Shown: positions 18,446 to 64,000 of the stretch, piece after piece
How the letters are laid out: every line of letters starts with the position of its first letter
Position numbering within the stretch: position 1 is the stretch's first letter
From: Hydra vulgaris
Taxonomy: Eukaryota > Cnidaria > Hydrozoa > Anthoathecata > Hydridae
Reading direction: 5' to 3'
DNA: 64,000 nt
Assembly: GCF_038396675.1 (NCBI RefSeq)
Contig: NC_088926.1
Location: 6,172,501-6,236,500, forward strand
Notes under the pieces: generated by a model
What the model was told of the DNA's origin: nothing
Databases searched by the model: none
Seen by the model: the letters and a program-made list of their open reading frames with translations, nothing else
Program-made: the position numbers and the translations under genes

Positions 18446-18924
18446 CTTTAGATATTAAGTTAAAAATAAAGGTACAAATTGTTAAAAATGATTAAGTACG
18501 AAGAGATATTTTTTCGGACACACAGATGAGGTTTTCGCTCACAATAAAATTTCTATCATCCAAAATTAGCATTTAGCATTACACGAAAACATTGCACGTA
18601 ATGTTAAGAAAAAATTTAAGCGTTTCTGACTATGATATAGAAATCATAACAATTGAAATAATTAATAATAAAAAACAATACATGATCAGAAGTGAATTAT
18701 TTAAATTTACGTCATAACCAAATAACTTGTGGTGATCGAATGGAAGAAGAATCGCTGATATCACGATTGTGGAGAAACAAGTTAGTGGGCGGTTGTTTAC
18801 TTTACCATAAAAATGTCTTAACTTTATTTTAACGATCTTTAAAATTTGCATAAATAGAGTAGATATTTTATCATTGCTATTGAGAAATAGGTACTGCATA
18901 AATAGAACTTGTTTTTAGTTGAGT

Positions 18925-21900
18925 ATGAAACAAAACAAATATTTTTATGAAAACTGTTGTTGCTTTTCAAAAGGAAATTGTGGATCATTCAAAAAACATA
19001 AAATTATAAACAAAATGTTCTACATTCATCAGCTGGGAGATGTTGATGTTAAGAAACACCTCATCAACTTAAAGGTAATTATGTATTTTAAATTTACGCA
19101 GACTGTAATATAATTTTTATAATTACATACTTTATAACTTCTCTGCGATAAGATTTTGAGACAAAGTTCTTTAAACAAAAAAAAATAGCTCTTTTAATTA
19201 ATTCCTCACTCTTTTAATAAATAATCACTAAATTAATCACACTCTTGCAATATTGTATTTTAATAATAACAACAATGTATTTCAAACTTGCAAACATTTT
19301 TCGTGAAGAGTCAGATTATAAACAATGCTTTAAATGACACACTTAATAATTGTTTAAAAAATTGTTTTTAGGTCATGCGATTAAACGATAATAATATTTG
19401 GGAAGAAAATGGACTTATTGCAAATAGACTTAAAAGAAATCTTGAAAAGGATGAACAAATATGTGCTTTTCACCGGTACACGTTTGGTATTGCATGGAGT
19501 CCTCCAAAAACATGCTTTCATCCTCACCTTCTAAATATAAAAGGAAAAAAATCTCCCGCTTTAAGGGCGTCACCAATACATGTCGTCATATCAATGTCAA
19601 AGCGATACAATGAAGTATTTTCAGTTGGTGCAATGCTGTGTTTTACCCATTTAAAGCAAGAAACTGCTTTATCTAGAGTCAACGAAAACACCAATTTATG
19701 TACAGAAACACAAACACAACAAGAACAAACATATATGACACCTGCTACTCCAGATGAAGAATTTGATCCCGGTGAAATTAATGTTTCACAGGAGATTTTG
19801 GACGAATCTCTAAGAAGCCGTGAGAGTGTAACTGAGGTTCTTAATGCAAGTCCAATAAAATTTAGATTAAAAAGGAAGTTCGAATATCTGGAAGATACTA
19901 CTAAAGATAAGTTAAAGCGCAAGTATGTTCGCCTAGAAAACTTATTAAAGAAAAAATTTGCGGAAGCTGTTGCTCCTGGACATGAGGAAATACTTATAGA
20001 TTTTCTTAACAGTAAAAATGTTGATGAAATAAATAGCCCTCTCCCTATTGAAATTATTCGTGCTCAGAAAGTATATAAGCAAAGTGATTCCATGGGAAAG
20101 TTAGTTATCCTCTCATTATTAGACCATACCAAGTATACCAAAAAGTTTATAATGAACACATTTGAGTGTACCAAACATCGTATAGAAACAGCAAGAAAAT
20201 GGCATGCATCTCATAAAGGGTTGGCATTTCCAGAGAAGAAAGTATTCGTCCGATCTAGTCTTGATCAAACAAAGTGTGAACATTTCTTAGACTTTATATT
20301 TACAAGCGGTATTTTGCATGATGTTGCTTATGGAATAACCAAATTAAAATACGACAGCGGTGAAGAACAAAAGATAGTGCATGCAATACTGACGACAAAA
20401 TATAGCCACGCTATCATGTTCTATCGAAAAAGTTGTAGTGAAAACAATTATATACCATTATCTGATTCAAGTTTGTGGAAAGTATTGCATGCAATAAAAC
20501 CTTCAAGTCGAAAAAGCTTTGCTGGATTAGATGATGTTACTGCTTCAGGCATGAATGGTTTTCAAACATTACAAAAATTGGCACAAAGATTTAGTTCTAA
20601 ATCTCTCGAAGCTGCCCTTGAAAAAGGAAAAAGGTATTTGAAAACAAGTTATCAAACCAATTGTAGTGTCAATGACTCAAACATTTCTTCTCATAGCTCA
20701 AAACATGCCTTATCAGATCCATCTGAAAAAAATCTTCAATCCAACACAGAGATATCAGAAGTGGTATGTGCCGATTGCTATGATTTGTGCAAAGCTATCG
20801 AGATGATCAAAGAACTAACAATTCAAAATTCTGACGATGCTGATTCTATTTATGATTTGGAAATTGCTGTAAAGGATGTATTCAACTACATAAAACACCT
20901 GATGAGAGATTCTCAACAGAAAAAGGCAAAAATCGAAGCTTTTAAGCAATTAAACGATGAAACTGCTTTCTGGCTTAAAGATTTTTGTCAAAAAATTCTT
21001 CCGGTTCGATACAGAGAGGGCCAAAGAGAGTATTTTGGCAAGAAAGGAATGAGTTTACATGTGGATATATTCTTCATAAAAATAGCAGGAAAGTTATTCA
21101 AACGTGTTTACTTTACTTAACGTGTTTACTTCAATGTATAGGTGTGATCAGGGAATAGGTGATGTTGTTTCGTTAGCCACTGCAGTTTTAGACCAATTCA
21201 GAATTGATCAACCGCATATCAAGAAAATGTTTACCAAATCTGATAATGCCGGCTGCTATCAGGGAAATCTTTCAGCTGAAGCAATCTACAATGTATGCAA
21301 AGAGAGAGATATAAAGTTGCTGAGATATGATTATAATGAACCCTGTTGTGGAAAAGATCAATGTGACAGGGAGAGTGCAGTTGTAAAGACAATTTTAAGG
21401 AGTTACGTTGACTCTGGTAATAATCTTTTGACTGCTGAAGATATACACAAGGCTATGCATTATAGTTTTGGCGCTAAAGATGCAAAAGTAGCAGTTGCTC
21501 AAATTAGCAATGATAAAACTGTAGTTACTGGACCAAAGATTAAGAACATTAGCAACTATCACTCATTTGAGTTTGGTGAGAAAAGTATGAAGATGTGGCG
21601 TTATTTCAATATCGGTGAGGGAATTGAACAAGAGTATGGAAATCTTAAAATTCAACCCTCGATTAAGTTGTTGTTGCCATATAGCAAAACAGATAATTCA
21701 ATTAAGCGTAACAAGTCACTTAAGGAAAAACAGAAAAGAAGTGACAGGCAATTATATTCATTAAGATTTTGCACTGAAATGAATTGTACTTTATCATTTG
21801 AAAGCGATGCTGAGTTAGAAGAACACATGCTATCCGGTCTTCATACAGTTCCGAAATCATTAACATCATTGGAACAAGTTCGCAACTCGTTTGTTCATAA

Positions 21901-23036
21901 GATGAAAATTACTTCACAACTAAATATGCCAATTTCTTCATCCTCTAACAGTGCTTCCGTAAAAGACAAACCACATTGCATGAACATTTTTCTATTGCAA
22001 GGTTGGGCATTACCAGTTCGAAGTTCTTTTAGATTTTCAAATCAGCAGAAAGAACTGTTGTATAAATACTTTATTCGTGGAGAAGAATCAGGTAATAAAA
22101 TGAGCCCTGAGCAGGTTCACATGCAGCTGAGGAGAGAACTTCCGCCTGATCAATATGTAACTAGCCAACAGATAAGATCTTTATTTTCAAGGTAGGCATT
22201 GTTGCTATCAAAACTTTTGCAAATTAGATTATGTTTCTGACTGTTAAATAGTTCTTTTACAAATATGAAATTAAAATTTAGGTGAAAGTTATAATTTTGT
22301 GTGTTTGTTTACATATGTTTAAAAATATGTACAATTGATATTGTTATAGATTTAGTAACCTGAAAAGAAAAGGTAAGCTGGTAGAACCGACAACAGAAAA
22401 TAATGAAAATAGTCAGGTTAACGATAACAAAGAAGTTTATGGCGAAAATGATGACTTTAATCTGGCAGGAGACAATGAAGATGATAATAAATATGAGGAA
22501 GACATCGCCAATCTTGCAAAAGAAATTTGTCTTGTATGGAAAGTGAATGATTGGGTTGCTGTTGCATATGAAAAACAATGGAATATTGGATATATTGTGG
22601 AGGTAATATTATTCAAAGTATATATTAGTTTCAAGTTTTTATTTTGTTTTACAAAACAGTGCTCTAAAATAAAAGGAATATAAATAAAATGTAAAAATAA
22701 TTTCAGAATGACATTATATAAGACTTTACAAGTTTTATTGAATGTAAGCAAAATTAAACAAATCATAAACTCTTTATTATATTATTTTAAATGTTGCGCT
22801 AATACTTTTAGGTATCTATAACTGGGATCAGAGTTAATTGTATGATTAACGGGCAAGAGAAGAATACTTTTCGCTGGCCAGTTACTACCGAGGAGATAAA
22901 TAACCAAACTGATAAAATTATCTGTTTAGTAAATGCTCCTTTTCTAATCAGTGGTTGTGGCGATTATTCATTATCCGAAGAAGACTATAATACAGTCATA
23001 TCATTATTCTTAGAGAAACTTACTGCAGCAGAGTAG
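18925..23036 (+). CDS. Transposase of TTAA-target element, copy A (five exons, ~1132 aa)
   Basis: Exons 18925-19074, 19372-21092, 21142-22191, 22350-22602 and 22812-23036 join in frame (3399 bases). Exon 1 holds a Cys-rich start (Cys-Cys-Cys-Phe...Gly-Asn-Cys). Catalytic candidates are Asp in Ser-Leu-His-Val-Asp-Ile (about residue 615) and Asp in KSDNAGCY (about 658), followed by Cys-Cys-Gly-Lys-Asp-Gln-Cys-Asp-Arg. A C2H2-like finger (C-x4-C-x12-H-x5-H) lies near 834-859. The C-terminal ~90 residues form a small domain with repeated Trp (Trp-Lys-Val-Asn-Asp-Trp) of unknown role. The exon 2/3 junction is doubtful: the proposed intron is only 49 bp and holds a repeated ACGTGTTTACTT, so a frame-breaking duplication is the alternative. 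Both copies share it. Confidence 0.75.
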
Positions 23037-23218
23037 AAATTATGTGTGATGTGGTGGATAATGTGTGTAAATGACTCTATTAATAAATGAAAAACTAATT
23101 TTTAAATGGAAAAACATTTAAATGTTTGATTTATGTTTTATTTAATTAGCAATATAGTTATCTTGATGTTAGATTTTTGTTCAGTTTTTAACTCATGTTA
23201 TATCATGCGTGTGACAAA

Positions 23219-23867
23219 ATCACACGAATTTTTTTTATTATTATGTTAGGACCTTTTTGTATTGACAGTTGGATATGTTTACATTTTTACAAAACTAAGC
23301 GCCTCTGCCGTAATGTTTCATTTTGTAAGTATACTAAAACATTTTTTTCCAATTTCAAGCCTTAATATATTAATAGGCCTTAGGTATCACATAACTTTCT
23401 TTGCATTTTTAGACTCAGTACCTTCGATAATTTCAAATCCTAAAAGAAAAATTGTGTGCAACACTTCGCCGCTAGAATTAACTCCGATTAAAAGTTGACA
23501 AAACTGATTGATTTTGTACTTTTGAACTATGATAATTAGCCAACCGCACAGTGTCACGCAACTTTTTTATATTTTTTGGAGAGAGCTTTTGGGTTACGTC
23601 TGATATTAACTACAAAAGCTATGTGCAACTTTTTGCCTTGCCAAAAAAATGGGTTCAAAGGTGGCAAAAACTAAATTTCTAAAAATTTTTAAAAAAATCT
23701 CAAAAATTTAAGCCCAGATTCCGAGTGAACGAAACATTTTTGAAAATTTTTTTTTTCCCCAACAGGTTTTCTCTATATTCTGATCAATATATAAAAAATT
23801 CAAGCAATTTGGAGGAGGTCACTTCCACAGTTTCAGGAATTTGCCTGATTCTTAGAAAAAACGGCTC
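23219..23867. repeat. Right terminal inverted repeat, copy A
   Basis: Pairs with 17806-18445. Differences between arms include the Val/Phe and Leu/Ser codons of the spurious 78-codon frame and about 12 bases of extra sequence near the outer end. Confidence 0.85.
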
Positions 23868-23910
23868 TTAAGCAATAGATTTTCATAATTTCGAATTTTG
23901 TTGCATTTGC

Positions 23911-33715: not shown

Positions 33716-34362
33716 AAATACATACGTCCTAAAATTTCAACAACGTGAACGAACTCGTCCCCAAAATTATGAAGTACCTTATCGCAAAAATATCAACAAC
33801 AACAAAAAATTGAGTTCTTGCATTTTCTGGTTGTTATAAGGGCTATAACAGCGACATTTAAATCATGTAATGATACTGGTAAAGGTTACACCTAAGCCAA
33901 TGGTAGTGTTATAGTTTTAAGCAGGTAATTATGTGTGGCAGTTATTGGGAGAATGATACAATAATTTGCGATCTTTTAGGTTCCGTGATAAATGTGTCCA
34001 ATCAGAACAACCATTACTAGCCTAGTAAAGCAAAATCCTAAAATTGATAATAAATTAACTAGAGTTGCGCTACATAATTTAACAATTTGTCAATTATATG
34101 CGGAAGGTTAAAGTTATATAACTTTGTTGTTTACCGTAAATTCAAAATTGCTTTCTTACACATAATCTTTTTTTACTAAAATTTGTCTCAAGTTGCCACG
34201 TGACGTTCTTCTATTCAGAAGAATTTGCTAACACTACATACACTGAGTCTTCCTTATCTTCTGTTAATCATAACTTATCAAATTCTGATATAACGTTATC
34301 TTGACTTCTCTCTAAGTTTAACGTTGACACTTCGGAATATTCGTCACGTTTTGATGCTTTAA

Positions 34363-35011
34363 GAGCCGTTTTTTCTAAGAATCAGGCAAATTCCTGAAAC
34401 TGTGGAAGTGACCTCCTCCAAATTGCTTGAATTTTTTATATATTGATCAGAATATAGAAAAAACCTGTTGGGGAAAAAAAAAATTTTCAAAAATGTTTCG
34501 TTCACTCGGAATCTGGGCTTAAATTTTTGAGATTTTTTTAAAAATTTTTAGAAATTTAGTTTTTGCCACCTTTGAACCCATTTTTTTGGCAAGGCAAAAA
34601 GTTGCACATAGCTTTTGTAGTTAATATCAGACGTAACCCAAAAGCTCTCTCCAAAAAATATAAAAAAGTTGCGTGACACTGTGCGGTTGGCTAATTATCA
34701 TAGTTCAAAAGTACAAAATCAATCAGTTTTGTCAACTTTTAATCGGAGTTAATTCTAGCGGCGAAGTGTTGCACACAATTTTTCTTTTAGGATTTGAAAT
34801 TATCGAAGGTACTGAGTCTAAAAATGCAAAGAAAGTTATGTGATACCTAAGGCCTATTAATATATTAAGGCTTGAAATTGGAAAAAAATGTTTTAGTATA
34901 CTTACAAAATGAAACATTACGGCAGAGGCGCTTAGTTTTGTAAAAATGTAAACATATCCAACTGTCAATACAAAAAGGTCCTAACATAATAATAAAAAAA
35001 ATTCGTGTGAT
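34363..35011. repeat. Left terminal inverted repeat, copy B
   Basis: Equivalent to 23219-23867 of copy A; pairs with 39785-40424. Confidence 0.85.
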
Positions 35012-35193
35012 TTTGTCACACGCATGATATAACATGAGTTAAAAACTGAACAAAAATCTAACATCAAGATAACTATATTGCTAATTAAATAAAACATAAA
35101 TCAAACATTTAAATGTTTTTCCATTTAAAAATTAGTTTTTCATTTATTAATAGAGTCATTTACACACATTATCCACCACATCACACATAATTT

Positions 35194-38100
35194 CTACTCT
35201 GCTGCAGTAAGTTTCTCTAAGAATAATGATATGACTGTATTATAGTCTTCTTCGGATAATGAATAATCGCCACAACCACTGATTAGAAAAGGAGCATTTA
35301 CTAAACAGATAATTTTATCAGTTTGGTTATTTATCTCCTCGGTAGTAACTGGCCAGCGAAAAGTATTCTTCTCTTGCCCGTTAATCATACAATTAACTCT
35401 GATCCCAGTTATAGATACCTAAAAGTATTAGCGCAACATTTAAAATAATATAATAAAGAGTTTATGATTTGTTTAATTTTGCTTACATTCAATAAAACTT
35501 GTAAAGTCTTATATAATGTCATTCTGAAATTATTTTTACATTTTATTTATATTCCTTTTATTTTAGAGCACTGTTTTGTAAAACAAAATAAAAACTTGAA
35601 ACTAATATATACTTTGAATAATATTACCTCCACAATATATCCAATATTCCATTGTTTTTCATATGCAACAGCAACCCAATCATTCACTTTCCATACAAGA
35701 CAAATTTCTTTTGCAAGATTGGCGATGTCTTCCTCATATTTATTATCATCTTCATTGTCTCCTGCCAGATTAAAGTCATCATTTTCGCCATAAACTTCTT
35801 TGTTATCGTTAACCTGACTATTTTCATTATTTTCTGTTGTCGGTTCTACCAGCTTACCTTTTCTTTTCAGGTTACTAAATCTATAACAATATCAATTGTA
35901 CATATTTTTAAACATATGTAAACAAACACACAAAATTATAACTTTCACCTAAATTTTAATTTCATATTTGTAAAAGAACTATTTAACAGTCAGAAACATA
36001 ATCTAATTTGCAAAAGTTTTGATAGCAACAATGCCTACCTTGAAAATAAAGATCTTATCTGTTGGCTAGTTACATATTGATCAGGCGGAAGTTCTCTCCT
36101 CAGCTGCATGTGAACCTGCTCAGGGCTCATTTTATTACCTGATTCTTCTCCACGAATAAAGTATTTATACAACAGTTCTTTCTGCTGATTTGAAAATCTA
36201 AAAGAACTTCGAACTGGTAATGCCCAACCTTGCAATAGAAAAATGTTCATGCAATGTGGTTTGTCTTTTACGGAAGCACTGTTAGAGGATGAAGAAATTG
36301 GCATATTTAGTTGTGAAGTAATTTTCATCTTATGAACAAACGAGTTGCGAACTTGTTCCAATGATGTTAATGATTTCGGAACTGTATGAAGACCGGATAG
36401 CATGTGTTCTTCTAACTCAGCATCGCTTTCAAATGATAAAGTACAATTCATTTCAGTGCAAAATCTTAATGAATATAATTGCCTGTCACTTCTTTTCTGT
36501 TTTTCCTTAAGTGACTTGTTACGCTTAATTGAATTATCTGTTTTGCTATATGGCAACAACAACTTAATCGAGGGTTGAATTTTAAGATTTCCATACTCTT
36601 GTTCAATTCCCTCACCGATATTGAAATAACGCCACATCTTCATACTTTTCTCACCAAACTCAAATGAGTGATAGTTGCTAATGTTCTTAATCTTTGGTCC
36701 AGTAACTACAGTTTTATCATTGCTAATTTGAGCAACTGCTACTTTTGCATCTTTAGCGCCAAAACTATAATGCATAGCCTTGTGTATATCTTCAGCAGTC
36801 AAAAGATTATTACCAGAGTCAACGTAACTCCTTAAAATTGTCTTTACAACTGCACTCTCCCTGTCACATTGATCTTTTCCACAACAGGGTTCATTATAAT
36901 CATATCTCAGCAACTTTATATCTCTCTCTTTGCATACATTGTAGATTGCTTCAGCTGAAAGATTTCCCTGATAGCAGCCGGCATTATCAGATTTGGTAAA
37001 CATTTTCTTGATATGCGGTTGATCAATTCTGAATTGGTCTAAAACTGCAGTGGCTAACGAAACAACATCACCTATTCCCTGATCACACCTATACATTGAA
37101 GTAAACACGTTAAGTAAAGTAAACACGTTTGAATAACTTTCCTGCTATTTTTATGAAGAATATATCCACATGTAAACTCATTCCTTTCTTGCCAAAATAC
37201 TCTCTTTGGCCCTCTCTGTATCGAACCGGAAGAATTTTTTGACAAAAATCTTTAAGCCAGAAAGCAGTTTCATCGTTTAATTGCTTAAAAGCTTCGATTT
37301 TTGCCTTTTTCTGTTGAGAATCTCTCATCAGGTGTTTTATGTAGTTGAATACATCCTTTACAGCAATTTCCAAATCATAAATAGAATCAGCATCGTCAGA
37401 ATTTTGAATTGTTAGTTCTTTGATCATCTCGATAGCTTTGCACAAATCATAGCAATCGGCACATACCACTTCTGATATCTCTGTGTTGGATTGAAGATTT
37501 TTTTCAGATGGATCTGATAAGGCATGTTTTGAGCTATGAGAAGAAATGTTTGAGTCATTGACACTACAATTGGTTTGATAACTTGTTTTCAAATACCTTT
37601 TTCCTTTTTCAAGGGCAGCTTCGAGAGATTTAGAACTAAATCTTTGTGCCAATTTTTGTAATGTTTGAAAACCATTCATGCCTGAAGCAGTAACATCATC
37701 TAATCCAGCAAAGCTTTTTCGACTTGAAGGTTTTATTGCATGCAATACTTTCCACAAACTTGAATCAGATAATGGTATATAATTGTTTTCACTACAACTT
37801 TTTCGATAGAACATGATAGCGTGGCTATATTTTGTCGTCAGTATTGCATGCACTATCTTTTGTTCTTCACCGCTGTCGTATTTTAATTTGGTTATTCCAT
37901 AAGCAACATCATGCAAAATACCGCTTGTAAATATAAAGTCTAAGAAATGTTCACACTTTGTTTGATCAAGACTAGATCGGACGAATACTTTCTTCTCTGG
38001 AAATGCCAACCCTTTATGAGATGCATGCCATTTTCTTGCTGTTTCTATACGATGTTTGGTACACTCAAATGTGTTCATTATAAACTTTTTGGTATACTTG

Positions 38101-39305
38101 GTATGGTCTAATAATGAGAGGATAACTAACTTTCCCATGGAATCACTTTGCTTATATACTTTCTGAGCACGAATAATTTCAATAGGGAGAGGGCTATTTA
38201 TTTCATCAACATTTTTACTGTTAAGAAAATCTATAAGTATTTCCTCATGTCCAGGAGCAACAGCTTCCGCAAATTTTTTCTTTAATAAGTTTTCTAGGCG
38301 AACATACTTGCGCTTTAACTTATCTTTAGTAGTATCTTCCAGATATTCGAACTTCCTTTTTAATCTAAATTTTATTGGACTTGCATTAAGAACCTCAGTT
38401 ACACTCTCACGGCTTCTTAGAGATTCGTCCAAAATCTCCTGTGAAACATTAATTTCACCGGGATCAAATTCCTCATCTGGAGTAGCAGGTGTCATATATG
38501 TTTGTTCTTGTTGTGTTTGTGTTTCTGTACATAAATTGGTGTTTTCGTTGACTCTAGATAAAGCAGTTTCTTGCTTTAAATGGGTAAAACACAGCATTGC
38601 ACCAACTGAAAATACTTCATTGTATCGCTTTGACATTGATATGACGACATGTATTGGTGACGCCCTTAAAGCGGGAGATTTTTTTCCTTTTATATTTAGA
38701 AGGTGAGGATGAAAGCATGTTTTTGGAGGACTCCATGCAATACCAAACGTGTACCGGTGAAAAGCACATATTTGTTCATCCTTTTCAAGATTTCTTTTAA
38801 GTCTATTTGCAATAAGTCCATTTTCTTCCCAAATATTATTATCGTTTAATCGCATGACCTAAAAACAATTTTTTAAACAATTATTAAGTGTGTCATTTAA
38901 AGCATTGTTTATAATCTGACTCTTCACGAAAAATGTTTGCAAGTTTGAAATACATTGTTGTTATTATTAAAATACAATATTGCAAGAGTGTGATTAATTT
39001 AGTGATTATTTATTAAAAGAGTGAGGAATTAATTAAAAGAGCTATTTTTTTTTGTTTAAAGAACTTTGTCTCAAAATCTTATCGCAGAGAAGTTATAAAG
39101 TATGTAATTATAAAAATTATATTACAGTCTGCGTAAATTTAAAATACATAATTACCTTTAAGTTGATGAGGTGTTTCTTAACATCAACATCTCCCAGCTG
39201 ATGAATGTAGAACATTTTGTTTATAATTTTATGTTTTTTGAATGATCCACAATTTCCTTTTGAAAAGCAACAACAGTTTTCATAAAAATATTTGTTTTGT
39301 TTCAT
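35194..39305 (-). CDS. Transposase of TTAA-target element, copy B (five exons, ~1132 aa)
   Basis: Exons 39156-39305, 37138-38858, 36039-37088, 35628-35880 and 35194-35418, on the minus strand. All visible reading frames translate identically to copy A, including the doubtful 49-bp intron or duplication between exons 2 and 3. That the same break is kept in a copy that moved recently suggests either that it is spliced out or that another copy supplied the enzyme. Confidence 0.75.
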
Positions 39306-39784
39306 ACTCAACTAAAAACAAGTTCTATTTATGCAGTACCTATTTCTCAATAGCAATGATAAAATATCTACTCTATTTATGCAAATTTTAAAGATCGTTA
39401 AAATAAAGTTAAGACATTTTTATGGTAAAGTAAACAACCGCCCACTAACTTGTTTCTCCACAATCGTGATATCAGCGATTCTTCTTCCATTCGATCACCA
39501 CAAGTTATTTGGTTATGACGTAAATTTAAATAATTCACTTCTGATCATGTATTGTTTTTTATTATTAATTATTTCAATTGTTATGATTTCTATATCATAG
39601 TCAGAAACGCTTAAATTTTTTCTTAACATTACGTGCAATGTTTTCGTGTAATGCTAAATGCTAATTTTGGATGATAGAAATTTTATTGTGAGCGAAAACC
39701 TCATCTGTGTGTCCGAAAAAATATCTCTTCGTACTTAATCATTTTTAACAATTTGTACCTTTATTTTTAACTTAATATCTAAAG

Positions 39785-40424
39785 ATCACACGAATTTTTT
39801 TTATTATTATGTTAGGACCTTTTTGTATTGACAGTTGGATATGTTTACATTTTTACAAAACTAAGCGCCTCTGCCGTAATGGTTCATTTTGTAAGTATAC
39901 TAAAACATTTTTTTCCAATTTCAAGCCTTAATATATTAATAGGCCTTAGGTATCACATAACTTTCTTTGCATTTTTAGACTCAGTACCTTTGATAATTTC
40001 AAATCCTAAAAGAAAAATTGTGTGCAACACTTCGCCGCTAGAATTAACTCCGATTAAAAGTTGACAAAACTGATTGATTTTGTACTTTTGAACTATGATA
40101 ATTAGCCAACCGCACAGTGTCACGCAACTTTTTTATATTTTTTGGAGAGAGCTTTTGGGTTACGTCTGATATTAACTACAAAAGCTATGTGCAACTTTTT
40201 GCCTTGCCAAAAAAATGGGTTCAAAGGTGGCAAAAACTAAATTTCTAAAAATTTTTAAAAAAATCTCAAAAATTTAAGCCCAGATTCCGAGTGAACGAAA
40301 CATTTTTGAAAATTTTTTTTTTCCCCAACAGGTTTTTTCTATATTCTGATCAATATATAAAAAATTCAAGCAATTTGGAGGAGGTCACTTCCATTGACTG
40401 CCTGATTCTTACAAAAAATGACTC
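39785..40424. repeat. Right terminal inverted repeat, copy B
   Basis: Equivalent to 17806-18445 of copy A; its outer end is TGACTC followed by ATAA. Confidence 0.85.
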
Positions 40425-40680
40425 ATAAGAACTGTTTTGCTTGTTGCAGTGCGAAAGAGTTTCGTTTCGAAAGAAATTTGGTTTTTTATCATTTTTTTAA
40501 AAAATATAATCTTAAAATGTTCATATGTTGCAATACTGAAAATAAAATTTTATTATAAACATTTTGGTATATAAAAATTTTATTTTTTACAATTATATCC
40601 GTTTGACCAACAAAGTTATTTTATAGACTTCGAAACTTCGTTTAGCGAAAGAGCTCATTTCGCAAGTGCGACTTCTATAA

Positions 40681-57289: not shown

Positions 57290-57640
57290 GCCCGTCCGAC
57301 TAGAAAAAAAGCTCAAATAAAAAGGAAGAACCGGTGATAAGCAATGCACCGATAAAGCGAACGATTAAACCGATGAAACGAAAGGTTAAAAAAAAAAGTT
57401 CCCGGGTTCAAAAAAGAACGACGTCACGCGCATGCGCATGCGCATGCGCGCAGAAATAAAGGATCAGGTGAAATAAAAACGATGAACCGACGATAAGCAA
57501 GGGTCCGAGGAAGTAGAGTATTGAACCGAGCGATTAAAGTGATGAACGGATTAAAAAAAAAGTTTCCCGGTTTCAAAAAAAAAGAATGACGCGCATGCGC
57601 ATGCGCATGCGCGCAGAAATAAAAGATCAGGTGACAAAAA
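57290..57640. repeat. 163-bp tandem repeat with a GCGCATGCGC core
   Basis: Two units, offset 163 bp, each with a (A/G)ACCG(G/A)...GATAAGCAA(T/G) part, a run of A, CCCGG(G/T)TTCAAAAAA, and the self-complementary GCGCATGCGCATGCGCATGC followed by GCGCAGAAATAAA and GATCAGGTGA. It lies just left of the small-gene cassette. Confidence 0.8.
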
Positions 57641-57699
57641 ATTTTATAGAAAAAAAAGGTTACAAATGAAATGGATTCTGTTCCCTAAAAATAGGGTAG

Positions 57700-57770
57700 T
57701 GTTCTTTCGTCCAATTTTCAAACGTTATGTTTGGGTAACGTTTTTTTCCGTACGTGACGAAAGAATGATA
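57700..57770. repeat. Short inverted repeat TTCTTTCGTC...GACGAAAGAA
   Basis: GTTCTTTCGTCCAATTTTC at the left and TACGTGACGAAAGAATG at the right, with AACGTTATG/GTAACGTTTT inside. A similar TTTCGTCCAACA/TGTTGGACGAAA palindrome is at 10881-10918. Confidence 0.6.
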
Positions 57771-57890
57771 TAGTTGGCAAAATAATAATTTTTATGACAT
57801 CATTTGAATTTCCAGACATTGTATTAGTTAGCTAAAAAAAAAAATTTATTTATAAAAATATATTTACATAAAAGATTACAATAAAAAAGA

Positions 57891-58103
57891 TTATAATTTA
57901 CGTATAGAAAAATTTATTTTTATATATTCATTTATAGATATATTTTTTTTTTTATTGTTTATATTGTTCAATTCGTCTTTTAGACATTTTTCAAAGTCAA
58001 GGCCGCGTAGTGGTCTTTTTAATTTCAAATTTGGCGGTTGAAATTCGTACGCTGGAGCATCAAGTTCGTCTTCCCAGTTTTCAACATCATTTTTATTATT
58101 CAT
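57891..58103 (-). CDS. Small acidic-then-basic protein, cassette gene 1
   Basis: 70 codons with ATG at 58103. A pyrimidine-rich TTTTTTAG acceptor ends 13 bases before the ATG (AG at 58117-58118). The N-terminal third is acidic (Glu-Asn-Trp-Glu-Asp-Glu-Leu-Asp) and runs into Ala-Pro-Ala-Tyr-Glu-Phe-Gln-Pro-Pro, then a basic patch (Lys-Leu-Lys-Arg-Pro-Leu-Arg). No domain is recognised. It is the last gene of the minus-strand series, 134 bp after gene 2. The Asn/Lys-rich C-terminus may be partly read-through of AT-rich DNA. Confidence 0.5.
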   Translation of the reverse strand: MNNKNDVENWEDELDAPAYEFQPPNLKLKRPLRGLDFEKCLKDELNNINNKKKNISINEYIKINFSIRKL

Positions 58104-58237
58104 TTTTTATTTATAACTAAAAAAAAAGAATGTTAGTATAAAGTGGTATAAAAAAAAAAAGAAAAAAATAAGGAATAAAAAAATCACAAAAAATGGGATA
58201 AAATATATATATTTCTAAATAAAAAAAAATACAAAAG

Positions 58238-58499
58238 TTATTTTTTTTGAAGATGACAACTTTGGCATACGCCACATTTTTTTATGCAAAAGTAGCGTTG
58301 GTTTACGGAATTTGAATGTACCAAAGAATGGTTTTGTAATGTAAAATAGTAGAAGTACATGGCTGTAAAAAAAAAAAATAAGATTAATAAATAAATAATT
58401 TAATGATAAAAAAAAGAAAAAAACAGAAAAAAATATACCTTTCATTTGTTTTCTTATTTTTTTATTAGGTTTTCTGCTGCTGTATCCATAGGTTTTCAT
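58238..58499 (-). CDS. Small Cys-rich protein, two exons, cassette gene 2
   Basis: Exon 1 is 58439-58499 (starts Met-Lys-Thr-Tyr-Gly-Tyr, strongly basic), intron 58363-58438 (76 bp, GTATAT...TTTACAG), exon 2 is 58238-58362. The join gives 61 residues ending in Cys-Ile-Lys-Lys-Cys-Gly-Val-Cys-Gln-Ser-Cys-His, a C-x3-C-x2-C-x2-C-H cluster that could bind zinc. The unspliced frame instead gives a hydrophobic stretch that is intron, not a membrane segment. A TTATAG|ACAAACTAATAAA leader precedes the ATG (AG at 58513-58514). Function unknown. Confidence 0.6.
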
Positions 58500-58671
58500 T
58501 TTATTAGTTTGTCTATAAATATAAAATGTTATTTTTATAATGTATAAAATTATTTTCGTGAATATAATAATATTGATCTATTATAATGATATAATTATAG
58601 ATAATTATATTAGATAATTATAATAGATAATTATAATAATTATAATAGATAATTATCATAGATAATTATAA

Positions 58672-59124
58672 TTATAATAGATAATTATCTATATATAATA
58701 ATATTGATGCTTCAGCTGGTTCTGGTACAGGATTATAAAAATAGAATAGTTCTTCTTGTTTAGCTTCTATGACCGCACTTGGATATACTGCGTTCGGTGG
58801 TGAATACACAGGTGGTAAATTTTTAACAACGCTTTCTTCATAGGTAGGTAGTCGAGGAATTTTGTTTTTATATTTAGTGACAATATCATTACGATGAATT
58901 GCTTTGCATAATACAAGTAAATATTCTAACTTGCTTTCTACTGTTTCGTAAATATGACCGTGTTCGCTTTGTATAGTGTTATCTTTAAAGTATGCTATAA
59001 TGTCCAAACCATTTTTTAAAGTTTCTTTGATTCCAAAAGGTATTTTAAGCATAAATTTAATCGATTTCACGTTGGCAATGGTTAGTTCCAGACTGATTTC
59101 TCTGAATATTTCAATTGTGTTCAT
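58672..59124 (-). CDS. DED-like protein with PY motifs, cassette gene 3
   Basis: 150 residues. Residues about 1-90 follow the death-effector-domain pattern by eye: Phe-Arg-Glu-Ile-Ser-Leu-Glu-Leu, Val-Lys-Ser-Ile-Lys-Phe-Met-Leu, Leu-Asp-Ile-Ile-Ala-Tyr-Phe, then Leu-Glu-Tyr-Leu-Leu-Val-Leu-Cys-Lys-Ala-Ile-His-Arg-Asn-Asp-Ile. DEDs dock caspases and FADD-type adaptors. The tail (about 92-125) has Leu-Pro-Thr-Tyr-Glu-Glu and Leu-Pro-Pro-Val-Tyr-Ser, that is LPxY and PPxY motifs that bind WW domains of NEDD4-type ubiquitin ligases. The leader after TTTTTTTAG (59141-59142) is ATTAACTAATAAAAAA. The stop lies in an AT-rich repeat. The DED call rests on pattern only. Confidence 0.6.
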   Translation of the reverse strand: MNTIEIFREISLELTIANVKSIKFMLKIPFGIKETLKNGLDIIAYFKDNTIQSEHGHIYETVESKLEYLLVLCKAIHRNDIVTKYKNKIPRLPTYEESVVKNLPPVYSPPNAVYPSAVIEAKQEELFYFYNPVPEPAEASILLYIDNYLL

Positions 59125-59244
59125 TTTTTTATTAGTTAATCTAAAAAAATAATGGTTAATAATGTTAGATAAAGTTCATAAAAATATATAAAAAATAACA
59201 ATGATAGAACAAAAGTACAAATACATTTTTTTACATAAAGTATA

Positions 59245-60324
59245 TTATTGAATAGTAATCGTGATAAATAAATTATTGTTAATAATAAATTGTTTTAGTT
59301 CTTCGTGTGAAATAAAATTTTTATAACCAACTGCTACATTATATTCAGTGGTAGGTTTATCAAAAGAACTATCGTCTAAAAGTTGAAGATAATTATTGTT
59401 GGTAGTAGTACGAGTAAAAAATCGATCTTTATCTCTCAAGGTTATATTGACATTTTTGGTAAAAGGCCATTTTAAAGCATCGTCCAGGTCACCTCGTAAT
59501 AATTGAAAGTAAATGGCTAGTTTGTTTATGTCGGTACTTCGAGTATAAACTTTTATACGATAACGGTAACCTTCTGATGTGTAAACTGGTTCTGTATAAA
59601 ATGGTTCATCTGATAATAGCCTGAGATTCATTTGATTAAGTTTGATGATTTGCGTGTCGTTAAAGATGTGTTGTATTACCTTTACTTCTTTAGGTTGTTG
59701 AATGGATTTTTTTAAAGCTAAGAATTCTGTGCTATTTTCTTCTAGGATTTGATAAAGTTTTGTTATTTCTTGTTTGAGTTGTTCTGTATCTTTTTGATTT
59801 GCTAAAACCAACATGTTGTCATAAAAGAGACTTTTTAATTCTGCCATTTCTTTGTTTATTTCTGCTAGGGTTTGATGAAGTTTGTCATTTTCTTCTTTTA
59901 GATTTTTAATTTCTTGGTCTTTTTCTTTAGAGTCAACTATTTGTTTAGTTGAAATTTCTTGAAGACTCTTCATTCTATTCATGATTTGATTAATAGAAAG
60001 ATTCAAATAATTTAAATTTTTCTTTTCTTCTTGAATGATTTGGTTCAAATTACGATTTTGTTGTTCTTTATAATATCGAAAGCAGATGACAGAGTGTTCA
60101 TAATAATCTTGATCATCGACTTTGATATTACAAAAAAAACATATTTTTTGTATATCTAGAAATTCATAATCACATTCATGGTTTAACAAATCTTGTACCT
60201 TTTTCTTACATGTAAAACATTCGTGGGAGTATTGTTCTGTAGAACAATCTGTTTGATGATTTAAAAGTTCTTCTGCACTAAATTCTTTGTCACAAAAACA
60301 GCAAAGATATATGTTGTCTGCCAT
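59245..60324 (-). CDS. TRAF-like protein (zinc fingers, coiled coil, MATH/TRAF-C), cassette gene 4
   Basis: 359 residues. Residues 1-85 hold Cys/His fingers (Cys-Cys-Phe-Cys...His-x4-Cys, Cys-x2-Cys...His-x-Cys, Cys-x2-Cys...His-x4-Cys) like TRAF-type zinc fingers. Residues about 85-215 are a heptad-rich coiled coil. Residues about 215-359 are a MATH/TRAF-C domain: Ser-Asp-Glu-Pro-Phe-Tyr-Thr, Gly-Tyr-Arg-Tyr-Arg-Ile-Lys-Val-Tyr, Leu-Lys-Trp-Pro-Phe, Gly-Tyr-Lys-Asn-Phe-Ile-Ser. TRAFs trimerise by coil plus TRAF-C and bind TNF-receptor-type tails. There is no RING at the N-terminus, so it would lack ligase activity and could act as a decoy or adaptor (inference). The leader after TTTTTCAG (60340-60341) is CAACTAATAAAAAAA. 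Confidence 0.85.
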   Translation of the reverse strand: MADNIYLCCFCDKEFSAEELLNHQTDCSTEQYSHECFTCKKKVQDLLNHECDYEFLDIQKICFFCNIKVDDQDYYEHSVICFRYYKEQQNRNLNQIIQEEKKNLNYLNLSINQIMNRMKSLQEISTKQIVDSKEKDQEIKNLKEENDKLHQTLAEINKEMAELKSLFYDNMLVLANQKDTEQLKQEITKLYQILEENSTEFLALKKSIQQPKEVKVIQHIFNDTQIIKLNQMNLRLLSDEPFYTEPVYTSEGYRYRIKVYTRSTDINKLAIYFQLLRGDLDDALKWPFTKNVNITLRDKDRFFTRTTTNNNYLQLLDDSSFDKPTTEYNVAVGYKNFISHEELKQFIINNNLFITITIQ

Positions 60325-60397
60325 TTTTTTTATTAGTTGCTGAAAAAAAAAACATTTATTTATATAAAAAGCTATAAAAAAATATACATGTCTTTTT

Positions 60398-60601
60398 TTA
60401 CCATAAAATAATTAATAAATATATAAAATCACTCAATAAAACATATAAAAGAATTAAAATATAAATAATGTTTGTTTCAATAACTTCTTGTTCTTGTTTT
60501 TGTTTGAATATATCGTTAAAAGTTATGTTTTCAACCTCTTCAAATACGTCTCCAAAACCAGGAAACATGTCTTCATAATTTTCATTATTATTAGTTGTCA
60601 T
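60398..60601 (-). CDS. Small tail-anchored protein, cassette gene 5
   Basis: 67 residues. The first ~43 are polar and acidic (Met-Thr-Thr-Asn-Asn-Asn-Glu-Asn-Tyr-Glu-Asp, Phe-Pro-Gly-Phe-Gly-Asp-Val-Phe-Glu-Glu), the last ~23 are hydrophobic (Ile-Ile-Tyr-Ile-Leu-Ile-Leu-Leu-Tyr-Val...), ending at the C-terminus: a tail-anchor layout for ER, mitochondrial or Golgi membranes. No consensus donor was found that would make the hydrophobic part an intron. TTTTTTAG (60613-60614) precedes the leader CAAACATAATA. Homology unknown. Confidence 0.5.
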   Translation of the reverse strand: MTTNNNENYEDMFPGFGDVFEEVENITFNDIFKQKQEQEVIETNIIYILILLYVLLSDFIYLLIILW

Positions 60602-60650
60602 TATTATGTTTGCTAAAAAAGGAAAAAAGATATATTTACAAATTAAAAAA

Positions 60651-61080
60651 CTACAAATAAAGTTCGGGTAAATTGTCCATTTTATTAATAACGTCTAAAA
60701 TATATTGTTCCCAATCCATTTCATTGAAGATCTCATGAATTTCTTTTTCTATTTCTTCCACTTCTTTTTCCACTTCTTCTTCTAACATTTGTGATTTTAG
60801 TTCTTCAATATAATCTGATTCTTCTTCTTCCATTTCTTGAACTAATTGTTCTAAATATTTTTCATAATCTTCCTCTGTTAACTCTTCCATTTCCATAAGT
60901 TCTTCCAAATCTTGTTCTTCTTCTTTTGTTAATAACAACTCGTGGTAGCATATAGTGTCTTCATTAATATTTTCTCCATAACTAATAGAAAAAAAATGTA
61001 TAAAAAATGTATAAAAAATAAAAAAATATAAAAAAAGTAAAATAGGCTTACCATCCACATTTTTTGATATATTGTTTCAT
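60651..61080 (-). CDS. Acidic coiled-coil protein, two exons, cassette gene 6
   Basis: Exon 1 is 61052-61080 (Met-Lys-Gln-Tyr-Ile-Lys-Lys-Cys-Gly-), the intron is 60982-61051 (70 bp, GTAAGC...TTCTATTAG), exon 2 is 60651-60981; total 119 residues. Most of exon 2 is Glu-rich heptads (Leu-Glu-Glu-Leu-Met-Glu-Met-Glu-Glu-Leu, Val-Glu-Lys-Glu-Val-Glu-Glu-Ile-Glu-Lys). The hydrophobic sequence seen without splicing is intron. TTTTTTAG (61101-61102) precedes CAAACTAATATATTAAAAAA. No known family; the Glu-rich coil may be a scaffold. Confidence 0.65.
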
Positions 61081-61129
61081 TTTTTTAATATATTAGTTTG
61101 CTAAAAAAATAAAAAAAGTTACAAAAAAA

Positions 61130-61444
61130 TTATTGCAATATAAAATGTGTAATTATTTCCATAGTTATATCTATATTTTTTTCAAGTTCTAATTTACTTT
61201 CTTTTGTTGAAATGTCAAGAGACCACATCCATAAAGCATCATATAAAGCACGAGCTGCTTCGACTTCGGTTCCTTTTTTTTGATATATTAAGTTTAAAAG
61301 TCTCATCATTCTTTCGTTGATATTATGGTAATCACATTGTATACATTCGATTTCACGTTTTTTGTAGTCAAGATATTCTGCCAAAGTTTGCCATTGTGTT
61401 TGCAAATGTGCTGCTATTTTTAGTTTTAATTGCATAAAATTCAT
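61130..61444 (-). CDS. Death-domain-like protein, cassette gene 7
   Basis: 104 residues, nearly all one domain. The pattern fits a Death domain: Leu-Lys-Leu-Lys-Ile-Ala, Trp-Gln-Thr-Leu-Ala-Glu-Tyr-Leu (the Trp-x2-Leu-Ala core), Ile-Glu-Cys-Ile, Met-Met-Arg-Leu-Leu-Asn-Leu-Ile-Tyr-Gln-Lys-Lys-Gly, Ala-Ala-Arg-Ala-Leu-Tyr-Asp-Ala-Leu-Trp. Death domains form oligomeric platforms with receptors, FADD, MyD88 and similar. Here there is no other domain, so it could plug into or block host assemblies (inference). It ends 49 bp above gene 6. TTTTTTAG (61455-61456) precedes the leader CAAAAAAATA. Confidence 0.65.
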   Translation of the reverse strand: MNFMQLKLKIAAHLQTQWQTLAEYLDYKKREIECIQCDYHNINERMMRLLNLIYQKKGTEVEAARALYDALWMWSLDISTKESKLELEKNIDITMEIITHFILQ

Positions 61445-61471
61445 TATTTTTTTGCTAAAAAATATAAAAAT

Positions 61472-61756
61472 TTAATATAAATAATTTAATATAAATAATT
61501 TACATTGTTGTATATTATATAAAAGTTTTTCATCTTCCCATAATGATAATACAAAATACAAATGTTTGATTGCCAACTTTTTGTTTGGTTGTGTTAATAT
61601 ATATAGGGTTAAAACATTTTTTATTTTATCAAATGTTTTTATGTAATTTTTATTGATTTTTTTTATTTCACTTCTTCTAAACTTTAATAAAAACGCCAAA
61701 TGTTTCCATTCGTGATGGAGTTGTTTTGAAGTGTAATTTATTATTTCTTTAATCAT
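61472..61756 (-). CDS. Death-domain-like protein, cassette gene 8
   Basis: 94 residues if translation starts at the ATG at 61756, which I prefer because an AG (TATACTAG, 61767-61768) lies 10 bases before it; an ATG at 61798 would add 14 residues. The pattern again fits a Death domain: His-Glu-Trp-Lys-His-Leu-Ala-Phe-Leu-Leu, Glu-Ile-Lys-Lys-Ile, Val-Leu-Thr-Leu-Tyr, Leu-Ala-Ile-Lys-His-Leu-Tyr-Phe-Val-Leu. It is diverged from gene 7 but in the same fold class, and the two are adjacent (27 bp apart), suggesting an old duplication. Confidence 0.55.
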   Translation of the reverse strand: MIKEIINYTSKQLHHEWKHLAFLLKFRRSEIKKINKNYIKTFDKIKNVLTLYILTQPNKKLAIKHLYFVLSLWEDEKLLYNIQQCKLFILNYLY

Positions 61757-61894
61757 TTTTTTTATTCTAGTATATATAAAATAGTAATGTAATTGCATAT
61801 AAAAATATTAATGTATATAAAAAAAATATAAAAAAAACAACTATAAAATTTTTATATTCTAAAAAAATATTTACAAAATTAAAAAAAACATAAA

Positions 61895-62341
61895 CTATAA
61901 ATTTTCTGGATCTGGACTCTCTAAAAAAAAAGACACAGAGAATATTAAAAAAATATACTTTTTTTTATAAAATAAAAAAGGATCAAGTTTAACTTACGAG
62001 GAGAGTAGTCCCAGTGCGAGGGACCCACCTCTCTATTTGGAGGTGGATATGGACTTTCTAAAAAAAAGGGAAATATTAAAAAAAATGAATTTTTTTATTA
62101 ATAAAAAAAACTAGTAAAGTTAAACTTACGACGAGTGCGGGAAGGTGTATCGTTCATGACATTTCTTAACACTTTGCGAATATTACTAAGTGTTAGTAAC
62201 TCTTGATCTATAAGAAAAAATAGTATTATAAAAAAATAATATTTTTTTATTATAGATGTAAACCATAAAACAATTACCTCTTTTTGCATTGTACGCAAAC
62301 AGTTGACAAATAGGGCGTTTTTTTTCCATTTTGGATAACAT
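61895..62341 (-). CDS. Four-exon proline-tailed protein, cassette gene 9
   Basis: Exons 62278-62341, 62130-62207, 61998-62057 and 61895-61920, all with good GTAAGT/GTAATT donors and TTTTTAG-type acceptors, give 75 residues in frame. The middle has a short helical, basic segment (Asn-Ile-Arg-Lys-Val-Leu-Arg-Asn-Val). The end is Ser-Pro-Tyr-Pro-Pro-Pro-Asn-Arg and Ser-Pro-Asp-Pro-Glu-Asn-Leu. Exons 3 and 4 both start with an (A)AGTCCA.ATCCA phrase and may be micro-exon duplicates. Introns are 70, 72 and 77 bp. The start is uncertain: an out-of-frame ATG lies upstream at 62408 behind a strong TTTTTTAG. No family recognised. Confidence 0.5.
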
Positions 62342-62511
62342 AAGACTGGTCTATAGTGCTATCATTAAATACTTCGTATTTTACTTTATTTATTGAAATA
62401 TAATTCATTTTAACTAAAAAAGAGGTTTATTTAGAAACAAATACCATATTATTTTTTTTTTGTAATAAATAAAAAATAGTTATAAATAAAAAAATATCAT
62501 TTTTTATAAAA

Positions 62512-62757
62512 ATGCCTAAAATAAGGTATACTCCTAGATCATTAAACACTGTCAATATGGCGCGTACAAAAACAACAGTTCCTAGAACAAAAAAAGCAGT
62601 TCAAACACAAACAAGTACAAAACAAAGTTCAACAAATCGTAAACTTGGAAGAGTTGGTAAAAGAATAAAACGCTGGGTTCATACTGCCGAATCCTATGTC
62701 GATATTAAACATCAATTAAAAGAAGCAAACATAAGACGAAAAAATAGACAAAAATAA
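62512..62757 (+). CDS. Very basic small protein with internal H3-like start, cassette gene 10
   Basis: 81 residues, rich in Lys and Arg and nearly free of hydrophobics, the only plus-strand gene of the cassette and convergent with gene 11 (26 bp between stops). Likely nucleic-acid binding. A second ATG at 62557 has a better context (A at -3, G at +4); starting there gives Met-Ala-Arg-Thr-Lys-Thr, which resembles histone H3 (Ala-Arg-Thr-Lys). After that come Pro-Arg-Thr-Lys-Lys-Ala, Lys-Leu-Gly-Arg-Val-Gly-Lys-Arg-Ile-Lys-Arg-Trp and a basic tail. It could be a DNA-condensing or chromatin-mimic protein; this is inference. Confidence 0.6.
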   Translation: MPKIRYTPRSLNTVNMARTKTTVPRTKKAVQTQTSTKQSSTNRKLGRVGKRIKRWVHTAESYVDIKHQLKEANIRRKNRQK

Positions 62758-62783
62758 TAATGTATTTTATATATAAAAAAAAT

Positions 62784-63340
62784 TTATAAATTTAAATAAA
62801 AAAGTCTATTTATATTATATTTTAATTTTCGAAGTTGTTTTCTTCTTATTTTGTATTCGTTTTTTTTTTTCTAAAATAAAAAATAAAATTCTTAAAAAAA
62901 TGTAATTTTTTATTTATAAATAATAATTTAAAAAAATAACTTACTTTTTTTTTCAAAATATTGTTTTCTTGGGGTTGAGTTGGTGTTGGGTTGTTGGTTG
63001 AGTTGAGTTGAGTGGGTTGGTTGAGTTGAGGTAGTATATCTTCTGAAAATTCTAACTCTGGTTCGTTTGACTCGTTTTCGTTTGGCTCGTTTTCTGTGTT
63101 TGTTTCTTTTATAATATTACTTTTAATCACAAAATCAATCCCATCTTCATTAAAAATACTTAAATCAGGAAAATCCAATACAGGATCATCTTCAATCACT
63201 ATTACTTCTGGATCATGATCATCGTCACTACTTATTTCCACCTCGTTTTCTTTAAAATCGATCTCTTTGCCTACAACTTCGTTGTCCATATAATATTGTG
63301 TTTTTTTTACAGAGCGCTTGGTAAAGCGTGTTTTTGTCAT
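62784..63340 (-). CDS. Acidic protein with SUMO-interaction motif and basic ends, cassette gene 11
   Basis: Exon 1 is 62945-63340 (ATG at 63340), the intron 62871-62944 (74 bp, GTAAGT...TTATTTTAG), exon 2 is 62784-62870; 160 residues. The N-terminus is basic (Met-Thr-Lys-Thr-Arg-Phe-Thr-Lys-Arg-Ser-Val-Lys-Lys), the middle acidic with Pro-Glu-Val-Ile-Val-Ile-Glu-Asp-Asp, a textbook SIM (hydrophobic core flanked by acids), then an Asn/Glu/Pro/Gln-rich linker, and exon 2 adds a Lys/Arg tail. Probably nuclear. First gene of the minus-strand series. No family recognised. Confidence 0.6.
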
Positions 63341-63414
63341 TTTTGATTTTGTTAACAAAAAACACGCTTTTTATGTATAAAATGTAATCTCTACAGATTA
63401 ATGTGAAATAATAG

Positions 63415-63646
63415 CTAAAGTGATGCAACTTTATGTAGTGAAAAGAAAATGCTGTGTCATGTTGGTTAAATTTAGAAACTTTTAATACCGCTTTTATGAA
63501 AAAGATTAAAGAGAATAAAATACTAAATAACTAAAGTGATGCAACTTTATGTAATGAAAAGAAAATGCTGTGTCAAGTTGGTTAAATTTAGAAACTTTTA
63601 ATATCGCTTTTATGAACAAGATTAAAGAGATTAAAATACGGAGTAA
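63415..63646. repeat. 116-bp tandem repeat, two copies
   Basis: CTAAAGTGATGCAACTTTAT starts at 63415 and 63531; the copies differ at few positions (GTAGTG/GTAATG, CATGTT/CAAGTT). It lies directly upstream of cassette gene 11. Confidence 0.85.
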
Positions 63647-63732
63647 ACAACTTTTTAAAAACACTGCAAAGAAAAAACTCTGCGTAAAGTGTTAAAATAA
63701 CATTTTAAATGAATTCAAAACTCCATGAACCA

Positions 63733-63826
63733 TCACGTCGACGTAGCATAGTGCATTCGCTCTCCGCACTATGTTTCAATCGCCATGTCATTAGACCGTT
63801 GTGGGTTCGACTCTAGGTGAAGGTTG
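63733..63826 (+). repeat. tRNA-like SINE head
   Basis: GACGTAGCATAGTGC resembles a Pol III A box, and GGGTTCGACTCT at 63803-63814 resembles a B box, about 60 bp apart as in tRNA. The segment between (CGCCATGTCATTAGACCGTTG) is like that of cnidarian tRNA-derived SINEs. No clover-leaf acceptor stem was found, so I do not call a tRNA gene. Confidence 0.5.
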
Positions 63827-64000
63827 TAGAAAGTTTAGAAAGTTTAGAAAGTTTAGAAAGTTATATGTTAAAGCGTTGGGTAGAAATACCTGCTGAGTGA
63901 TGTCTAGGAAGTTATATGTTAAAGCGTTGGGTAGAAATACCTGATGAGTGATGTCTAGAAAGTTATATGTTAAAGCGTTGGGTAGAAATACCTGATGAGT
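63827..64000. repeat. Minisatellite tail, 51-bp units (runs off the window)
   Basis: A short GTTTAGAAA repeat (about three copies) passes into 51-bp units starting GTTATATGTTAAAGCGTTGG at 63860, 63911 and 63962. It follows the SINE head and may be its tail. Confidence 0.85.

Follow-up and report, generated by a model that had tools for sequence, protein, structure and literature searches.

A compact and dispersed cassette of TRAF-like and death-fold genes with an array of splice acceptors in Hydra vulgaris

A stretch of 64,000 nucleotides (nt) of Hydra vulgaris DNA (NCBI RefSeq assembly GCF_038396675.1, contig NC_088926.1, positions 6,172,501 to 6,236,500 of the forward strand), hereafter called the window, was analyzed. 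It contained a cassette at positions 57,891-63,340 (5.4 kb) with 11-12 compact small genes, one on the plus strand and the rest on the minus strand, where the order from right to left was g10, g9, g9b, g8, g7, g6, g5, g4, g3, g2 and g1. The cassette encoded a TRAF-like protein (g4), two stand-alone proteins with a Death domain (g7) or a Death-domain-like fold (g8) and a DED-like protein (g3), carried an array of splice acceptors before its gene starts and was one of many copies in the Hydra genome. Its genes and the acceptor array were as follows.

62784-63340, minus strand: g10, 160 amino acids (aa), two predicted exons (63340-62945 and 62870-62784)
62512-62757, plus strand: basic gene, 81 aa, net charge +20, the sole plus-strand gene
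62274-62408, minus strand: g9, 44-aa frame with CVQC, acceptor 5 nt before the ATG, called from its frame and splice site
61895-62157, minus strand: g9b, three-exon frame, 37 aa, proline-rich (PYPPPNR)
61472-61756, minus strand: g8, 94 aa, stand-alone Death-domain-like protein, acceptor 10 nt before the ATG
61130-61444, minus strand: g7, 104 aa, stand-alone Death-domain protein, Pfam Death
60651-61080, minus strand: g6, 119 aa, acidic coil, net charge -33, two predicted exons with a 70-nt intron (61051-60982)
60398-60601, minus strand: g5, 67 aa, acidic N-terminus, MFPGFGD motif
59245-60324, minus strand: g4, 359 aa, TRAF-like, with three C2HC zinc-finger-like units, a coil-like region and a MATH domain, no RING
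58672-59124, minus strand: g3, 150 aa, DED-like domain (residues 7-87) with RNDIV, C-terminal LPTY/PPVY tail
58238-58499, minus strand: g2, 61 aa, basic, CIKKCGVCQSCH, two predicted exons with a 76-nt intron (58438-58363), called from its frame and splice site
57891-58103, minus strand: g1, 70-aa frame, acceptor 13 nt before the ATG
57718-57819, minus strand: g0, 33-aa frame, acceptor 12 nt before the ATG (12/15 pyrimidines), leader CTAACTAATACA
57831-62415, minus strand: acceptor array, T-rich tract and AG 5-20 nt before the ATGs of g9, g8, g7, g6, g5, g4, g3, g2, g1 and g0

The stop-to-ATG gaps on the minus strand measured 27, 49, 49, 73, 116, 120, 134, 138 and 172 nt. The only long gap (375 nt) lay between g10 and g9 and harbored the plus-strand basic gene, the end of which was 26 nt from the end of g10. 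A preliminary description of this DNA had reported 11 genes spaced 26-172 bp apart and containing small introns. The gene count and the spacing were reproduced, the 11 genes that it meant being matched by inference, small introns were predicted, and two frames were added: g9b inside the cassette and g0 to the left of 57,891, 71 nt past g1. Introns with GT/AG ends were predicted in g2, g6, g9b and g10 (70-77 nt). Four GTAAG[T/C] donors were detected on the minus strand of the cassette, all of them at predicted introns, and none on the plus strand, with about two expected per strand. The guanine-cytosine (GC) content at the three codon positions was 0.40/0.22/0.23 in the pooled minus-strand frames versus 0.16 in the gaps, which is the pattern expected of coding DNA. 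This pattern was absent from g2 (0.27/0.31/0.32) and g9 (0.29/0.27/0.29). The genes g0, g1, g2, g9, g9b and the basic gene were called without homologue or domain support in this analysis; since g2 and g9 also lacked the coding pattern, they were the weakest gene calls.

The preliminary description had proposed a TRAF-like protein without RING, a DED-like protein with PY motifs and two stand-alone Death-like proteins, and profile scans supported these assignments, for g3 and g8 with matches below the curated cut-offs. The MATH domain of g4 matched Pfam with an E value of 2.6e-19 (70.2 bits against a curated cut-off of 27.4), and no RING was found among the nine Pfam families listed for g4 to E 10. 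Residues 116-357 of g4 matched the TRAF3 chain 8zuk (E 8.9e-12, phmmer against PDB sequences). To E 0.1 the search returned 33 distinct PDB sequences, comprising 28 TRAFs, four meprin beta and one zinc-finger protein, and chains of TRAF1, 2, 3, 4, 5 and 6 were all matched. Residues 83-215 included one proline and no glycine, and the hydrophobic fraction at a/d positions was at best 0.44-0.80 in five stretches, by direct residue counts. Three CxxC...H..C units were recognized by pattern at the N-terminus, where no Pfam zinc-finger match rose above the cut-off. The 14 Cys and His residues of this region had a mean conservation of 0.93 in eight relatives, compared with 0.77 for the other residues there (P 0.004).

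Among the death-fold genes, g7 matched Death (PF00531) above the curated cut-off (E 2.2e-8, 34.5 bits against 22.6) and also weakly matched the THOC1 domain 1wxp by sequence (E 6.5e-4). The Death match of g8 was just below the same cut-off with 22.2 bits (E 1.6e-4 from the second Met, and 2.3e-4 for the longer frame). No resemblance between g7 and g8 was detected by BLASTP (E 0.69). The DED (PF01335) match of g3 reached 27.1 bits and E 5e-6, below the cut-off of 35.9, and g3 had no match among PDB sequences to E 5. Single-sequence structure models were poor, with a mean predicted local distance difference test score of 64.7 for g8 and 33.3 for g3, and neither backed nor contradicted these folds.

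The TRAF-like g4 was queried against 5.8 billion proteins, and 27 relatives were identified among 2,613 candidates. All 27 were from Hydra vulgaris, with 58-100% identity, and most of them had been named TRAF-like by NCBI. They were spread over contigs of 10 different sizes (44.7 to 87.0 Mb), each of which is presumably a chromosome. One NCBI protein included g4 at 100% identity across its full length. The sequences of 25 relatives, all of them annotated models, were read. In 11 of these 25 the NCBI model began in a g5-like protein joined to g4, and in two of the 11 (P0020 and P0027) a g6-like protein preceded g5. In P0026, g4 ran into a DED-like end of 48 residues that was 42% identical to g3. 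These joined models indicate that the order g6-g5-g4-g3 recurs elsewhere and that the cassette belongs to a dispersed unit. In nine of the 11 joined models the residues before the Met of g4 represented the in-frame leader (QLIKKM, LLIKKM, TNKKM or similar), as expected from use of the g4 acceptor or from read-through of the leader. The join of the other two (P0006 and P0008) lay further inside g4. Eight near-full-length relatives differed from g4 at 8-136 positions. The two most distant ones (131 and 136 differences) kept open frames, with about 10 nonsense changes expected in each without selection, in a comparison that covered annotated models only and was thus biased towards intact copies. 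Some relatives were shortened or internally deleted in the alignment.

Splice acceptors were scored as the nearest AG 5-20 nt upstream of an ATG with at least 10 pyrimidines in the preceding 15 positions. Ten gene starts on the minus strand were tested, g9b not being counted. An acceptor was present at nine of them. Among other ATGs the figure was 103 of 2,140 for the window and three of 97 for the minus strand within the cassette. A stricter criterion had been applied first and gave 5/10 gene starts versus 55/2,117 controls; because it was relaxed afterwards, the P value (about 1e-11) should be taken as approximate. The only tested start without an acceptor was that of g10, the first gene, which would carry the promoter-proximal 5' end. 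The leaders between AG and ATG were A-rich, and AACTAAT followed the AG in g6, g4, g3, g2 and g0. No other match of this signal on the minus strand of the window was closely followed by an ATG; on the plus strand, six matches belonged to a tandem repeat (1-2,950). The g0 acceptor, outside the boundary drawn earlier, was located by this leader motif. Acceptor and motif together indicate that the unit extends to the left beyond 57,891, where the left end of this copy (g0) may be cut off. As an array before gene starts, the acceptors support one common transcript, and they fit its resolution either by alternative splicing or by Hydra spliced-leader trans-splicing. Spliced leaders are added to at least one third of Hydra genes, as summarized in PMC7986045, and, to make an operon, a Hydra intergenic region that carries a T-rich acceptor suffices, as outlined in PMC3273482.

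The remaining genes displayed features that the preliminary description had listed as a SUMO-interaction motif (SIM) protein, a tail anchor, an acidic coil, a basic protein and PY motifs; all of these were present, as sequence features only. The first gene of the leftward unit, g10, has a basic C-terminus and the motif VIVIEDD, which we take to be of the SIM-like type. This motif is kept in a relative (P0028, Hydra LOC136075259) with 67% identity over the matched part. A hydrophobic stretch at the C-terminus of g5 (Kyte-Doolittle value, KD, 2.79) resembles a tail anchor. The introns of g9b (62129-62058, 72 nt; 61997-61921, 77 nt) have GTAAGT donors and its ATG has no tract acceptor; it is predicted to be additional or alternative to g9. 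No family match was found in profile scans for g1 or for the basic 81-aa protein. The second Met of the basic protein (62557-62754, plus strand) starts MARTKT: MARTKTTVPRTKK. This start resembles the N-terminus of histone H3, and a histone mimic is possible, as is a chance likeness in a protein rich in K, R and T.

The two sides of the cassette differed in their repeats.

63341-64000, strand not assigned: right flank, tandem repeats upstream of g10, cut by the window end
57315-57641, strand not assigned: left (downstream) flank, diverged direct repeat of about 160 bp with the palindrome CGCGCATGCGCATGCGCATGCGCG twice

On the right, a 116-bp tandem repeat occurs twice (63410-63641) and a 51-bp repeat about three times (63851-64000, cut by the window end). 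A terminal or promoter region of an element is a possible reading of these repeats. A small inverted repeat was seen by eye near 57704-57766, at the end of g0. The surroundings had been called transposon-rich, and this was confirmed. Outside the cassette, 29 stop-to-stop open reading frames (ORFs) of at least 100 aa were found, of which 24 were scanned with Pfam and five were identical in translation to scanned ones; the only matches were to reverse transcriptase (3) and endonuclease (2). In addition, two copies of a 6.07-kb DNA transposon (17802-23874 and 34355-40428) lay in opposite orientation with 99.93% identity. By its sequence this is a recently active element of no assigned family; its terminal inverted repeats measure about 655 bp (97%), and its frames of 582 and 369 aa had no Pfam match to E 0.01. 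The left end of the window (1-3503) was occupied by tandem units of about 1.06 kb with 89-96% identity, each with a short EGF-like cysteine-rich stretch on the minus strand (by eye).

We suggest, with a probability of roughly 0.55, that the cassette is the accessory host-manipulation block of a dispersed virus-like mobile element and that it probably blocks TNF-receptor/death signalling. When a compact block of unrelated small genes is present at many sites with open frames, a viral or mobile carrier is a better explanation than a host locus. The content of the block (detached signalling adaptors, a SIM protein and a strongly basic protein) suits a region devoted to host manipulation. Transcription would probably begin just to the right of 63,340 and proceed leftward over the 11-12 genes. 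Each ATG after the first could then be reached from the nuclear primary transcript by alternative cis-splicing from one 5' leader, which is the way in which adenovirus late genes are expressed, or alternatively by Hydra spliced-leader trans-splicing onto the acceptors. The products would be detached adaptor domains of the TNF-receptor/death pathway, that is a RING-less TRAF, two Death-only proteins and a protein in which a DED-like domain is combined with WW-ligand (PPxY) motifs. TRAFs without RING cannot ubiquitinate, and proteins that consist of Death or DED alone can cap caspase-activating assemblies. A dominant-negative action is the likeliest one, in which the TRAF, Death and DED sockets of the host would be occupied and the signal would not be passed on. 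The PPxY tail of g3 may recruit a Nedd4-type ligase to DED partners, and the hydrophobic tail of g5 could provide a membrane platform. Infected or element-bearing cells would thereby be kept alive. A narrower version, in which an element-borne interference kit (RING-less TRAF, two Death and DED-PPxY) forms a unit of about 11 genes that depends on host spliced-leader trans-splicing, is put forward only tentatively.

Several observations weigh against this interpretation. The recurrence in other cassettes concerns g6-g5-g4-g3, so that g7, g8, g9, g2, g1, g0 and the basic gene are outside that evidence, and the g5-g4 joins of the NCBI models may be gene-prediction artefacts. No relatives of g4, g7 or g3 were found in IMG/VR, searched with a database tool that may omit the genome of the window. 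The cassette had 14 strong acceptors on either strand; what counts is therefore their position at the ATGs and not their number. Poly(A) signals (AATAAA or ATTAAA) were present before the acceptor in three of 10 gaps (g10-g9, g5-g4 and g1-g0). With so few of them, alternative splicing to one shared end is the likelier arrangement, and an operon of the classic trans-spliced kind, with separately polyadenylated cistrons, is less probable. The end of the window, 660 bp upstream of g10, cuts the right side of the block, and no long inverted repeat pair that might represent terminal inverted repeats was found in 55.5-64.0 kb. None of the ORFs in the window that reach 100 aa matched a capsid, polymerase, integrase or transposase, a search which shorter or spliced genes could escape. 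The viral or selfish origin proposed in the preliminary description was supported in part: the many dispersed copies favour such an element over an ordinary host locus. No hallmark gene was among the ORFs scanned.

The cassette might instead be one arm of a Hydra Polinton or adintovirus, the polymerase, integrase, ATPase, protease and capsid genes of which are outside the window or lost. Hydra polintons do exist, namely P1-HM (PMC11071308) and HM (PMC4642659). However, neither a Polinton core gene among the same ORFs nor polinton-type terminal repeats in 55.5-64.0 kb could be found, and we consider this origin possible but doubtful. Somewhat less probable is that the copies are dead relics of a formerly mobile block, now untranscribed and with acceptors that are mere remnants. 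The lack of a visible mobility gene in this copy, the possible truncation at g0 and the truncated or internally deleted relatives agree with decay, whereas the open main frames and intact splice sites of this copy, together with the NCBI protein that contains the whole g4 at 100% identity, speak against it.

A host immune family, in which an operon-like TRAF/Death/DED cluster has been spread by segmental duplication and serves normal signalling, appears unlikely. Such a family would agree with relatives that all came from Hydra and for the most part carry the NCBI name TRAF-like, with the preserved frames and with the existence of operons in Hydra as described in PMC3273482. It is less easily reconciled with about a dozen unrelated tiny genes that lie mostly 27-172 nt apart among transposons and include an acidic SIM protein and a strongly basic one, with g4 relatives on contigs of 10 different lengths, or with a TRAF that has no RING.

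A last point against the proposed block of death signalling concerns its direction: we know of no tested viral TRAF other than the pro-apoptotic one of the fish iridovirus ISKNV. That the cassette proteins would likewise promote cell death, to release virus or to kill cells, is nevertheless improbable, since g4 lacks the RING of the ISKNV protein and stand-alone viral death folds are more often inhibitors. The ISKNV protein, ORF111L, binds TRADD and induces caspase-8 apoptosis according to PMC3352826.

If the cassette is indeed an anti-death block of a mobile element, death-receptor signalling would already be contested between Hydra and its genome parasites, and a mobile element would be able to place a dozen genes behind splice acceptors and perhaps to draw on the trans-splicing of its host. 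Both points are testable, as vectors for Hydra transgenesis and operons have been published (PMC3273482). Viruses and transposons with a single apoptosis or immunity gene are already known. Our literature searches turned up no set of adaptors of the TNF-receptor level (TRAF, Death, Death and DED) in one compact dispersed block of an early-branching animal or in one spliced unit, and such a set in one spliced unit is new to us.

Among known systems, the vFLIPs of herpesviruses and poxviruses are small proteins with tandem DEDs and no catalytic domain. The g3 protein is likewise a small DED-like protein without a catalytic domain, but its DED-like domain is single and is combined with a PPxY tail. 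The RING-less animal TRAFs of the TRAF1 type have a zinc finger, a coil and a MATH domain, and g4 resembles them in its MATH domain, its zinc-finger-like units, its coil-like region and the lack of a RING; unlike them, g4 is multicopy, lies in a compact gene block and had relatives only in Hydra. Hydra Polinton 1 and the adintoviruses are integrating virus-like elements, and apoptosis-related cargo has been reported for adintoviruses; none of their core genes was found in the window (ORFs of at least 100 aa) and none of their ends in 55.5-64.0 kb.

Domains of this kind have been found in a virus (ISKNV ORF111L, PMC3352826) and in mobile elements (the Burro retroelements, PMC6431247), which are precedents for the proposed carrier. 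The megalocytivirus viral TRAF ORF111L has a coiled coil and a MATH domain, and g4 has a MATH domain and a coil-like region. However, ORF111L carries a RING and is pro-apoptotic, while g4 has zinc-finger-like units and no RING and is located beside Death and DED genes. The Burro giant Gypsy retroelements of planarians are mobile carriers of the apoptosis domains MATH_TRAF_C, BIR and BCL2-like. These domains are part of a giant polyprotein or an accessory ORF, whereas the Hydra block consists of separate small spliced genes without a reverse transcriptase. The Hydra RFC140-flp operon, as described in PMC3273482, resembles the cassette in its short intergenic region and its T-rich acceptor before the downstream ATG, and its single transcript is like the one proposed for the cassette. 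In the cassette this acceptor feature of spliced-leader operons was present at all nine starts from g9 to g1 and at g0, but not at g9b. RFC140-flp comprises two genes at one locus, with 417 nt from stop to acceptor and a putative poly(A) signal. In contrast, the cassette has about 10 acceptors, 17-159 nt from stop to acceptor (370 nt once) and gaps mostly without a canonical poly(A) signal, and it forms a dispersed block.

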